DNA of 64,000 nt, taken from an uncultured Pseudomonadota bacterium. GTDB lineage: Bacteria > Myxococcota_A > UBA796 > GCA-2862545. The stretch spans positions 62,001-126,000 of the forward strand of contig CAJXTB010000008.1 in assembly GCA_913061235.1 (NCBI GenBank), read 5' to 3'. Made by a program: the position numbers and the translations under genes. Shown piece by piece: positions 11,976-28,657 of the stretch. Under the pieces are notes generated by a model. That model was not told where the DNA came from, did no database searches, and worked only from the letters and a program-made list of their open reading frames with translations. Numbering within the stretch: the first letter of the stretch is position 1; each line of letters opens with the position of its first letter.

Positions 11976-12290
11976 TCAGGTGAGCTTGATCTCGACATGC
12001 ACGCCGGACGAAAGGTCCAACTTCATGAGTGCGTCGACGGTCTGCTGAGTCGGCTCAAGGATATCCAAGAGTCGAAGGTGGGTGCGCCGTTCAAATTGCT
12101 CGCGCGCCTTTTTATCAACGTGCGGTCCGCGAAGTACGGTCCACTTGTTGATGCGTGTTGGTAGGGGGAATGGTCCCCGAACATCGACACCGCTACGACG
12201 GGCAGTTTCGACGATTTCACGAGCTGACTTATCAAGCAGCTTGTGGTCGTACGCCTTGAGGCGGATGCGAATCTTGTTTCCAGTAGCCAT
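11976..12290 (-). CDS. rpsJ: 30S ribosomal protein S10 / NusE
   Basis: S10 is a head protein of the 30S subunit and, as NusE, joins transcription antitermination complexes with NusB and NusG. I start at ATG 12290 (104 residues, [20 protein letters not shown]); the frame is open upstream into tuf but without homology. [20 protein letters not shown] and the C-terminal IKLT are typical. It follows tuf by 22 bases. Confidence 0.97.
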
Positions 12291-12312: not shown

Positions 12313-13503
12313 CTATTCGATGATCTTAGCGACGACGCCGGCGCCAACAGTACGGCTACCTTCGCGAATAGCGAATCGTAGCTGATCTTCCATAGCAATC
12401 GGCATGATGAGCTCGACTTCGATGGAAACGTTGTCACCAGGCATGACCATGTCCACACCCTCTGGGAGAGTAATGGCGCCAGTCACGTCGGTAGTGCGGA
12501 AGTAGAACTGTGGGCGGTAGCCTGCGAAGAATGGCTTGTGACGACCACCCTCTTCCTTCTTCAGGACGTAGACTTCTGCCGCAAACTTGCTGTGCGGGTT
12601 GACCGACTTGGGCTTGGCCAGGACCTGACCGCGCTCAATGTCTTCACGCTTGACGCCGCGAAGCAGCGCACCAATGTTGTCTCCTGCCCGACCTTCGTCG
12701 AGCAACTTGCGGAACATCTCGACGCCTGTGCAGGTCGTTGTAGTCGTGGGCTTGATGCCAACGATTTCCAAAGACTCGCCAACCTTGACGATTCCACGTT
12801 CGACACGACCAGTTGCAACCGTTCCACGACCAGAGATCGTGAAAACGTCCTCAATGGGCATAAGGAATGGACGGTCAATCAAGCGCTCTGGAGTCGGAAT
12901 GAAAGTATCGACCGCCTCCATGAGCTTCAAGACTGCCTGTGAACCAATCTCAGAAGTATCGCCTTGCAGAGCCTTGAGCGCAGAGCCCTGGATGACCGGT
13001 GTGTCATCTCCAGGGAACTCATACGCGTCCAACAGTTCGCGTACTTCCATCTCGACCAGCTCAAGGAGCTCTGGGTCGTCCAGCATGTCGACCTTGTTCA
13101 GGAACACGACGATGTACGGCACCTGCACCTGACGAGCGAGCAACACGTGCTCACGGGTCTGCGGCATCGGGCCGTCAGCGGCGCTCACGACCAAGATGGC
13201 GCCGTCCATCTGGGCGGCTCCAGTGATCATGTTCTTGATGTAGTCGGCATGTCCGGGGCAATCAACGTGAGCGTAGTGACGGTTCGCCGTCTCATACTCG
13301 ACGTGAGCGGTATTAATCGTAATACCGCGGGCCTTTTCTTCCGGCGCCTTGTCGATGTCAGCGTAGTCTTGGAAGGTACCGCCGTTTGCATCAGCAAGGA
13401 CGCGAGTGATTGCGGCGGTCAAAGTAGTCTTGCCGTGGTCAACATGGCCAATCGTGCCGATGTTTACGTGGGGCTTACTACGGTCAAATTTTTCCTTAGC
13501 CAT
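12313..13503 (-). CDS. tuf: Elongation factor Tu, str/S10-side copy
   Basis: GTPase that delivers aminoacyl-tRNA to the ribosome. 396 residues from ATG 13503, preceded by GGAG. The G1 loop GHVDHGKT, the DCPGHADY switch and NKVDM base-recognition motifs are intact. It is nearly identical in protein to the second copy (27467-28657): I see three differences (Ala/Ser in HSKF-A/S-AEV, and the ends KIIE versus KILD). fusA, which normally precedes this copy, is absent, so tuf follows rpsG directly across a 212-base structured spacer. Confidence 0.98.
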
Positions 13504-13715
13504 GACAGACTCCAGGAACGTTGCGCCGAGAAACGGCAAGATGGGTGCAAGCGACTAGCTTGCCAGGAATGTGTATCGGCCAGTCTCTGGCGGAAGCCAG
13601 ACAGAACCGATGGGCGGCTATGCCCGCCGAGGGCCGCCCGCATATTCGGTCCGTAGGGACCCGTCCACTAGGAGGGTTCGTCGCTCGGGCGTGCGACGAA
13701 CCATGGACGCAACTA
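13504..13715 (-). other. rpsG-tuf spacer with a string of perfect stem-loops
   Basis: A 212-base non-coding spacer where fusA would be expected. Perfect hairpins read in plus coordinates: gcaagc/gcttgc at 13547-13563, tctggc/gccaga at 13586-13601, ggtcc/ggacc at 13648-13661, and a 10-bp stem ggttcgtcgc/gcgacgaacc at 13675-13702, which lies 13 bases beyond the rpsG stop codon. None is followed by a clear T-run. It may be a processed or protective leader for tuf, a weak terminator, or both; function is inference. Confidence 0.6.
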
Positions 13716-14186
13716 CTACCAGCGGTAGTGAGCGAAAGCCTTGTTGGCTTCTGCCATGCGATGAACATCATCGCGCTTCTTGACGCTGCCACCACGGTTG
13801 TGGGAGGCCTCGATCAACTCGTTAGCGAGCTTCTCGGACATAGTCCGACCGCCACGCTTACGAGCGTACTCGATCAGCCAGCGCATCGACAACGCAGTAC
13901 GACGCTCTGGACGCACTTCAATAGGCACCTGGTAGGTCGAACCACCGACGCGTCGAGATTTAACTTCGACCATCGGCTCAGAATTTTCCAGAGCCTTCTG
14001 GAAAACCTGCAGCGGGTCTTCACGTGTACGCTCTGCAACCAGATCGAAAGCGTCGTTCACAATCTTCTCAGCAATGGACTTCTTGCCATCACGCATCAGA
14101 TTGTTTGTGAACTTCGCAACGAGCAAGTCGTTAAAACGGGGGTCCGGCAGAATGTCGCGCTTTTGCACGACGCGGCGGCGAGGCAT
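13716..14186 (-). CDS. rpsG: 30S ribosomal protein S7
   Basis: Primary assembly protein of the 30S head, near the E site. 156 residues: [40 protein letters not shown] and the C-terminal [20 protein letters not shown] are diagnostic. It follows rpsL by 9 bases. The next gene is tuf rather than the usual fusA. Confidence 0.98.
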
Positions 14187-14195
14187 ACTGTCTCC

Positions 14196-14570
14196 CTACT
14201 TCTTCGGGCGCTTAGCGCCGTACTTTGAACGACGTTGACGACGGCCAGAGACCTCGGCACAGTCGAGAGTTCCACGAACAATGTGGTAACGAACACCGGG
14301 CAAGTCCTTCACACGACCGCCGCGAACGAGCACAGAGTTGTGCTCCTGGAGGTTGTGGCCCTCGCCCGGGATGTAAGCCGTGACTTCCATACCGTTCGTC
14401 AAACGAACGCGAGCAACCTTGCGCAGGGCAGAGTTTGGCTTCTTTGGAGTAGTGGCGTACACGCGGGTACAAACGCCGCGCTTTTGCGGGTTGCCCTTGA
14501 GAGCCGGTGCGGTCGACTTACGCCGAACTTGCTTGCGACCCTTTCGGATGAGCTGGTTGATGGTAGGCAT
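14196..14570 (-). CDS. rpsL: 30S ribosomal protein S12
   Basis: Decoding-centre protein. I start at ATG 14570 (124 residues, [19 protein letters not shown]). The streptomycin-contact loops [18 protein letters not shown] and [13 protein letters not shown] carry the wild-type lysines, so no rpsL resistance change is seen. It heads the str segment, 130 bases downstream of rpoC, with a possible promoter in that gap. Confidence 0.98.
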
Positions 14571-14617
14571 GGTGTCCTCTGAATGGTGAGCTGAATCGGA
14601 GTCCAGCGGCCGGGCCG

Positions 14618-14645
14618 GCTTATGGATGCAGGACCCGCTTGTCAA
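14618..14645 (-). promoter_or_regulatory. Possible promoter upstream of rpsL
   Basis: On the minus strand a perfect -35 box TTGACA (14640-14645) is followed after about 15-16 bases by CATAAG/ATAAGC, a weak -10. It lies in the 130-base rpoC-rpsL gap, about 50 bases before the rpsL start. The -10 is poor, so this is tentative. Confidence 0.4.
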
Positions 14646-14700
14646 GCGATGCGGCAGGGTCACAGGCCCTCCCGCTCGGATTTCGTGTCACAATGATCGA

Positions 14701-27466: not shown

Positions 27467-28657
27467 CTAGTCGAGAATCTTGGCAACGACGCCAGCGCCA
27501 ACAGTGCGGCTACCTTCGCGGATCGCGAAGCGAAGCTGATCTTCCATAGCAATCGGCATGATGAGCTCGACTTCGATGGAGACGTTGTCACCTGGCATGA
27601 CCATGTCCACGCCCTCTGGGAGGGTAATGGCGCCAGTCACGTCAGTGGTACGGAAGTAGAACTGCGGGCGGTAGCCTGCGAAGAAAGGCTTGTGACGGCC
27701 TCCCTCTTCTTTCTTCAGGACGTAGACTTCAGCAGAGAACTTGCTGTGCGGGTTGACAGACTTGGGCTTGGCCAAGACTTGGCCACGCTCAATGTCTTCA
27801 CGCTTGACGCCGCGCAACAACGCACCGATGTTGTCGCCTGCACGACCTTCGTCGAGCAGCTTGCGGAACATTTCCACACCTGTACAGGTCGTGGTGGTGG
27901 TCGGCTTGATGCCAACGATCTCGAGTGACTCGCCAACCTTGACGATTCCACGCTCGACGCGGCCCGTCGCAACCGTTCCACGACCAGAGATCGTGAACAC
28001 GTCCTCAATCGGCATAAGGAACGGGCGGTCAATAAGACGCTCTGGAGTGGGGATGAAGGTATCCACTGCTTCCATGAGCTTCAGGACAGCTTGCGAACCA
28101 ATCTCGGAAGTATCACCCTGAAGGGCTTTCAGCGCCGAACCCTGGATGACTGGTGTGTCATCTCCCGGGAACTCGTATGCGTCGAGCAATTCGCGAACTT
28201 CCATCTCGACCAACTCAAGGAGCTCTGGGTCGTCCAGCATGTCGACCTTGTTCAGGAAGACGACGATGTATGGAACCTGGACCTGACGGGCGAGCAGAAC
28301 GTGCTCGCGAGTCTGTGGCATCGGGCCATCTGCCGCGCTTACGACCAAGATAGCGCCGTCCATTTGGGCGGCTCCAGTGATCATGTTCTTGATGTAGTCG
28401 GCATGACCGGGACAGTCCACGTGGGCGTAGTGACGGTTGGCCGTCTCGTACTCGACGTGCGCTGTGTTGATAGTGATGCCGCGAGCCTTCTCTTCCGGTG
28501 CCTTGTCGATGTCGGCGTAGTCCTGGAAGGTTCCACCATTCGCATCGGCGAGGACACGGGTGATTGCGGCGGTCAACGTAGTCTTGCCATGGTCAACGTG
28601 GCCAATGGTGCCGATGTTGACGTGGGGCTTGCTACGGTCGAATTTTTCCTTGGCCAT
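27467..28657 (-). CDS. tuf: Elongation factor Tu, tRNA-linked copy
   Basis: Second EF-Tu gene, 396 residues from ATG 28657. The open frame continues upstream through the tRNA genes but that part is not coding. G motifs are as in the other copy. Although the proteins differ at only three positions, the DNA differs at many silent sites (16 changes in the first 42 codons, all synonymous, counted by eye). It is preceded by four tRNA genes exactly as E. coli tufB is, and followed by a terminator-like hairpin before secE. Confidence 0.98.

Follow-up and report, generated by a model that had tools for sequence, protein, structure and literature searches.

In the window, which is the whole 64,000-nt stretch of DNA analysed here, fusA is missing from the str operon and rpsG is followed directly by tuf, very probably because two EF-G paralogues encoded elsewhere in the genome carry the two functions of the str-operon EF-G (EFG I). 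The interval between rpsG and tuf is the usual bacterial site of fusA, the order rpsL-rpsG-fusA-tuf is among the most conserved in bacteria, and EF-G is normally essential. The replacement of EFG I by a pair of paralogues, spdEFG1 and spdEFG2, has already been published and is described for spirochaetes, planctomycetes and delta-proteobacteria (Margus et al. 2011, PMC3150367); what is reported here is a further case, in which the series of states is unusually clear. A literature search on the str operon, fusA and EF-G in "Myxococc-" bacteria found no paper.

The rpsG-tuf junction in the window

The minus strand of the window carries, in this order, rpoB, rpoC, rpsL, rpsG, a gap of 212 nt, tuf and rpsJ, the names of rpoB and rpoC being taken from their translations as read. 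Likewise named by reading the translation were rpsL (S12; 14196-14570, minus strand), the first gene of the str cluster, and rpsJ (S10; 11976-12290, minus strand), which comes next after tuf copy 1; the start of rpsL was set at the methionine of MPTINQL within an open reading frame of 14196-14663. As originally predicted, rpsG and tuf are separated by exactly 212 nt (13504-13715, minus strand), and both flanking genes are intact: rpsG (ribosomal protein S7; 13716-14186, minus strand) matches TIGR01029 with 228 bits and has its stop codon at 13716-13718, and tuf copy 1 (EF-Tu; 12313-13503, minus strand), which adjoins the spacer, matches TIGR00485 with 745 bits. A second copy of tuf is located beside tRNA genes (27467-28657, minus strand). 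The two EF-Tu proteins are identical in 393 of 396 residues, and a 316-base stretch at the 5'-end of the genes is only 88% identical despite the near-equal proteins.

No fusA is present between rpsG and tuf, and the spacer was also correctly described at the outset as free of any EF-G remnant. When the whole genome was searched with TIGR00484, an EF-G model (E up to 1e-3), the spacer gave no match, the matches closest to it being in the two tuf genes, and five EF-G proteins compared by tblastn with the spacer alone (E up to 1) gave none either. EFG I, which is recognised by the position of fusA between rpsG and tuf, is absent from this locus. Rfam found six tRNAs only over the window, and a scan of 13400-13800 showed neither a sigma-70-like promoter nor a U-tract terminator.

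The spacer is more structured than expected by chance. Its minimum free energy of -93.4 kcal/mol (z -3.33) was not reached by any of 200 dinucleotide shuffles, and refolding against a separate shuffle set resulted in a z of -3.16, with one of 150 shuffles as low. The strongest hairpin is located just past the rpsG stop codon (13675-13702, minus strand); its arms (13675-13687 and 13690-13702) are 92% complementary and contain a perfect 10-bp stem, which 4 of 100 shuffles matched. With the best arms at this value and the remaining stems shorter, the earlier description of a spacer filled with perfect hairpins was too strong.

EF-G proteins encoded elsewhere in the genome

As a check, it had been proposed to search the genome for EF-G and to inspect its neighbours. 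Two proteins were found that reach or closely approach the EF-G cut-off (659 bits), one on contig C6 (G000:C6:286964-289015) with 947 bits and one on contig C2 (G000:C2:271564-273618) with 660 bits in the genome search and 656 bits as a protein. Both genes lie inside long contigs, and the neighbouring open reading frames do not read as ribosomal genes. The expectation that EF-G would be encoded elsewhere was correct in this respect, although what was found is most probably not a relocated fusA but spdEFG1 and a second paralogue. Among the weaker matches of the model were RF3, LepA, TypA and the two tuf genes, together with a distant EF-G-like protein that scores 388 bits against NF009381, under the cut-off of 583 of that model.

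The best solved relative of the C6 protein is "Elongation factor G, mitochondrial" with 798 bits, as opposed to 659 bits for the best bacterial EF-G; this grouping with mitochondrial EF-G1 is by score, since the tree described below held no mitochondrial sequences. The protein carries the three-residue KDG insertion in switch I by which spdEFG1 is defined (PMC3150367). Judged by its sequence, it belongs with EF-G1 of the mitochondrial type (spdEFG1) and has kept the translocase tip residues of domain IV. The C2 protein, a member of a group named here clade C, scores 560 with bacterial EF-G (structure 1dar, Thermus EF-G), 401 with mitochondrial "ribosome-releasing factor 2" (EF-G2) and 392 with EF-G1. 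A profile of 30 clade C members gave 760, 564 and 561 for bacterial EF-G, mitochondrial EF-G2 and EF-G1, and a profile of 14 str EF-Gs gave 1053, 669 and 715 for the same targets. With ordinary bacterial EF-G far ahead and mitochondrial EF-G2 barely above EF-G1, these scores do not clearly place clade C in spdEFG2. According to Margus et al., EFG I and spdEFG2 are indistinguishable for some delta-proteobacterial EF-Gs (PMC3150367).

The tree was constructed by a quick method without bootstrap from 86 of the 132 extracted EF-G rows, after reduction of the named loci to 21 and removal of two duplicates. In this tree, clade C (30 rows) and spdEFG1 (17 rows) each form a group with a support of 100 and the str EFG (14 rows) one with a support of 77, and the four diverged str copies form long branches of unsure placement. 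The KDG insertion is present in all 24 spdEFG1 rows with an N-terminus and in none of 15 str EFG, 33 clade C and 4 diverged str rows; the glycine pair in loop 1 of the domain-IV tip is present in 25/25 spdEFG1 and 15/15 str EFG rows and, at the aligned positions, in 0/33 clade C rows, one glycine remaining in two of the first 30 (these counts include nine spdEFG1 or str rows and three clade C rows added after the tree). The clade C protein of the window's genome has two adjacent glycines slightly further along, and the loss of the pair therefore holds by aligned position. One loop-1 glycine is changed in each of the four diverged str copies. The tip histidine, situated in a poorly aligned stretch, is kept in 17/17 spdEFG1, 14/14 str, 2/30 clade C and 1/4 diverged rows, and both tip loops of domain IV are changed in clade C. 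The C2 protein keeps the GTPase motifs, and clade C proteins end before the usual C-terminal helix, the loss of which was judged by length: 6-8 residues follow the FxMEF motif in clade C (27/30 rows), 21 in str EFG (11/14) and 25-28 in spdEFG1 (15/17), with rows without the motif omitted (3/30 clade C, 3/14 str, 2/17 spdEFG1, 4/4 diverged and 60/66 named rows). The two loop-1 glycines are described as serving translocation, and one of them is changed in each of human mitochondrial EF-G2 and Borrelia EF-G2, both recycling-only factors; mitochondrial EF-G2 is also described as having a shorter C-terminal helix, which gives room to RRF (PMC8203779, PMC9067457).

The region downstream of rpsG in related genomes

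The synteny count is based on 36 of the 63 genomes of the order, those with a located rpsG; the other 27 are left out. In 16 genomes fusA follows rpsG, in 4 a strongly diverged fusA does, and 16 have no fusA, with rpsG next to tuf in 10 and next to rpsJ in 6. These are counts of related genomes and not of independent events. In the family of the window (f1), fusA is absent from all 12 genomes, tuf coming next in 7 (3 contigs end inside it) and rpsJ in 5. Family f4 has tuf next in three genomes (two cut inside tuf), rpsJ in one and a diverged fusA in one, and a diverged fusA is found in 3/3 genomes of family f5, where that of G024, a fragmented assembly, reads in two frames. Families f2 (12/12), f3 (2/2) and f6 (2/2) have kept fusA, with contig ends cutting G042 and G031. 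At six loci (L179, L180, L183, L186, L187, L195), rpsG runs straight into rpsJ and tuf is also gone. Diverged EF-G genes still adjoin rpsG at L190, L191, L192 and L197, and in two of the genomes concerned, G024 and G033, rpsG and the diverged EF-G are separated by a hairpin of 16-17 bp with a T-run behind it, an arrangement that resembles an intrinsic terminator.

Clade C was found in 20/20 genomes with a lost or diverged str fusA (as fragments in G010 and G014) and in 4 of the 16 genomes that keep fusA, the other 12 being without it. At an identity of at least 50%, it was found in none of the 22 f2 genomes, whose 12 located str loci keep fusA. Eighteen of the 20 altered genomes contain spdEFG1 with KDG; G014 has an spdEFG1-like fragment that does not include the KDG region, and spdEFG1 was not found in G015 (85% complete). 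Clade C and spdEFG1 thus co-occur where EFG I is absent, the pattern by which membership in spdEFG2 is recognised. In the genomes of f3 and f6, the str fusA occurs together with genes of the spdEFG1 type and of clade C; since these families have clade C and yet keep fusA, clade C by itself does not force the loss of fusA.

Outside the order but within the class, an rpsG match was obtained in 6 of 8 genomes. The context of rpsG was resolved in four of these: EF-G adjoins it in G064 and G069 and lies about 0.5 kb past rpsG in G070, whose rpsG is split into two pieces. In G063, neither fusA nor tuf is found within 1.5 kb past rpsG; this genome encodes two EF-Gs, one of them clade-C-like (47% identical), with a short end and no glycine pair in loop 1, and the other spdEFG1-like, with an insertion that is not KDG. 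The contig scan for relatives covered the best 80 of 591 relatives, and among these 80 named loci fusA follows rpsG in 71, three are cut inside fusA, two are cut too early, and four have no fusA (L039, the same contig as G001; L051; L060; L080). Several of the nearest named S7 loci, among the matches listed, are labelled Myxococcota or Deltaproteobacteria.

Hairpins after rpsG occur in relatives both with and without fusA. Within the first 45 nt past rpsG, a hairpin that no more than 5 of 100 shuffles matched was found in 16 of 31 gaps, including that of the window, irrespective of the presence of fusA, and for this reason the hairpin is probably older than the loss of fusA. However, gaps on the tuf side fold well more often than those on the fusA side, with 8/10 genomes beating the shuffles before tuf (at most 2 of 150 as good) and 7/16 before fusA (at most 2 of 100 as good). 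The gap sequences of the window's family align poorly beyond two genomes of one genus. Because the sequence is not conserved across the genera of the family and significant hairpins are also found in relatives that keep fusA, the spacer is probably not a scar of fusA; the original prediction, according to which only a structured spacer remains, was right about the structure but probably not about what it is a remainder of. The spacer would rather be the downstream region of rpsG, with a hairpin that probably has a role between rpsG and tuf, in attenuation or in forming a 3'-end.

Two conserved elements were found in the gaps of relatives, neither of them in the window. The first, a hairpin found in 14 f2 and f3 genomes, is located in the rpsG-fusA gap (e.g., L131:2057-2136, L142:2051-2131, L035:1912-1993). 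It has 13 double-changed cells in 2 of 9 pairs, a count reached by 0/500 shuffles; neither the number of such pairs nor that of pair types exceeds the shuffles. The model of this hairpin (R1) finds 13 of 235 genomes of the phylum, all among its source genomes, and its matches in a further 37 loci, those of the window's family included, are only at chance level (E 0.8 to 3.6). Three of the loci with this hairpin were scanned with Rfam and showed no match at its position; in eight loci, including the rpsG locus of the window, Rfam gave only tmRNA matches, at one locus and away from the gap. The second element is a 22-base motif, CGWGTGGNYGNGGNNNCCGCRA, present once each in 6 of 71 genomes, all of f4 and f6, and always in the gap after rpsG (L229-L234, near position 1501): in the rpsG-fusA gaps of G029, G034 and G032 and the rpsG-tuf gaps of G036, G057 and G060. 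The reversed pattern, used as a control, was matched four times among these 71 genomes. None of the 21 genomes of the window's family, in 12 of which rpsG was located, has the motif.

A resemblance of two conserved gap elements of relatives to S7-binding parts of 16S rRNA was considered as a candidate mimicry and was dropped. When 26 gaps were aligned locally to the 16S rRNA of G033, only two (G040, G011) gave alignments matched by at most 2 of 100 shuffles. The alignment of G040 covers the S7-binding stretch in question, but not through the gap element; the best alignment of G026 pairs the element with that stretch, but 20 of 100 shuffles score as well. The search for 16S gave a match in 2 of 12 genomes.

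The low folding energy of the spacer, the better-folding gaps before tuf and the occurrence of one motif in both rpsG-fusA and rpsG-tuf gaps would all suit a conserved regulatory RNA that was retained when fusA was deleted; such an RNA is nevertheless rather unlikely, given the poor alignment of the gaps within the window's family, the absence of the 22-base motif from that family and the chance-level matches of R1 in its loci.

Proposed replacement of EFG I and comparison with known systems

In the proposed replacement, the spdEFG1 encoded on C6 would perform translocation, and the clade C protein encoded on C2 would perform ribosome recycling together with RRF. EFG I would be dispensable because these two divide its tasks between them, and would become redundant once both paralogues were present. 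The redundant gene would then have diverged in place in some families and been deleted in others, bringing rpsG beside tuf, and some relatives have also lost the tuf of the str locus. More tentatively, the order may have evolved a recycling-only factor of its own, with clade C being distinct from spdEFG2, changed in its tip loops and devoid of the C-terminal helix; its arrival might have led the str EF-G to lose translocation and then to vanish, with the four diverged str EF-Gs, each changed in one loop-1 glycine, possibly caught midway. The replacement would explain a break in one of the steadiest bacterial gene orders. Within a single order, a gene that is normally essential is found intact, diverged or lost, alongside its candidate replacements, so that the division of EF-G into one factor for translocation and one for recycling, as seen in mitochondria, becomes testable as an evolutionary sequence.

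It would also be conceivable that spdEFG1 alone does both jobs and that clade C has another role, e.g., under stress, as has been speculated for spdEFG2 in Actinobacteria (PMC4342817), and the changes in both domain-IV tip loops of clade C would be compatible with this. However, the literature describes EF-G1 as confined to elongation in both Borrelia and mitochondria (PMC9067457, PMC8203779), and clade C accompanies every lost or diverged str fusA, which leaves this explanation little probability. Even less probable is a simple relocation, by which the str fusA moved and is now the C6 or C2 gene: the C2 protein does score best against ordinary bacterial EF-Gs, but the tree keeps the three EF-G groups apart, and, given the presence of all three kinds side by side in f3 and f6, clade C is not the str fusA moved elsewhere. 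An assembly artefact, in which a fusA in the spacer was lost or collapsed, can practically be dismissed, as the loss is common to 12/12 family genomes with a located rpsG, the junction recurs with a complete tuf in G009, G020 and G011 of the family and G060 of another, as well as in five further genomes whose contigs stop within tuf (G017, G010, G004, G057, G036), and both EF-G genes of the window's genome (G000) lie well within their contigs, away from apparent ribosomal genes.

Compared with the canonical str operon, the order rpsL-rpsG-tuf is kept here, with rpsJ next, whereas fusA is missing, and six relatives have no tuf at this place either. As in the systems with an spdEFG pair, no EFG I was found, an spdEFG1 with KDG is present, and a second EF-G co-occurs with it; unlike in those systems, the second EF-G is not clearly spdEFG2, and intact, diverged and absent str fusA coexist within one order. 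The replacement of EFG I by spdEFG1 and clade C would also resemble the EF-G1/EF-G2 systems of Borrelia burgdorferi and human mitochondria, where a translocation-type EF-G is accompanied by another in which loop 1 is altered. As far as can be read from the proteins, clade C differs from the known EF-G2s, in which one glycine is changed, in that most of its rows have neither loop-1 glycine and the second tip loop is changed, and its shortened C-terminal end resembles that of mitochondrial EF-G2.
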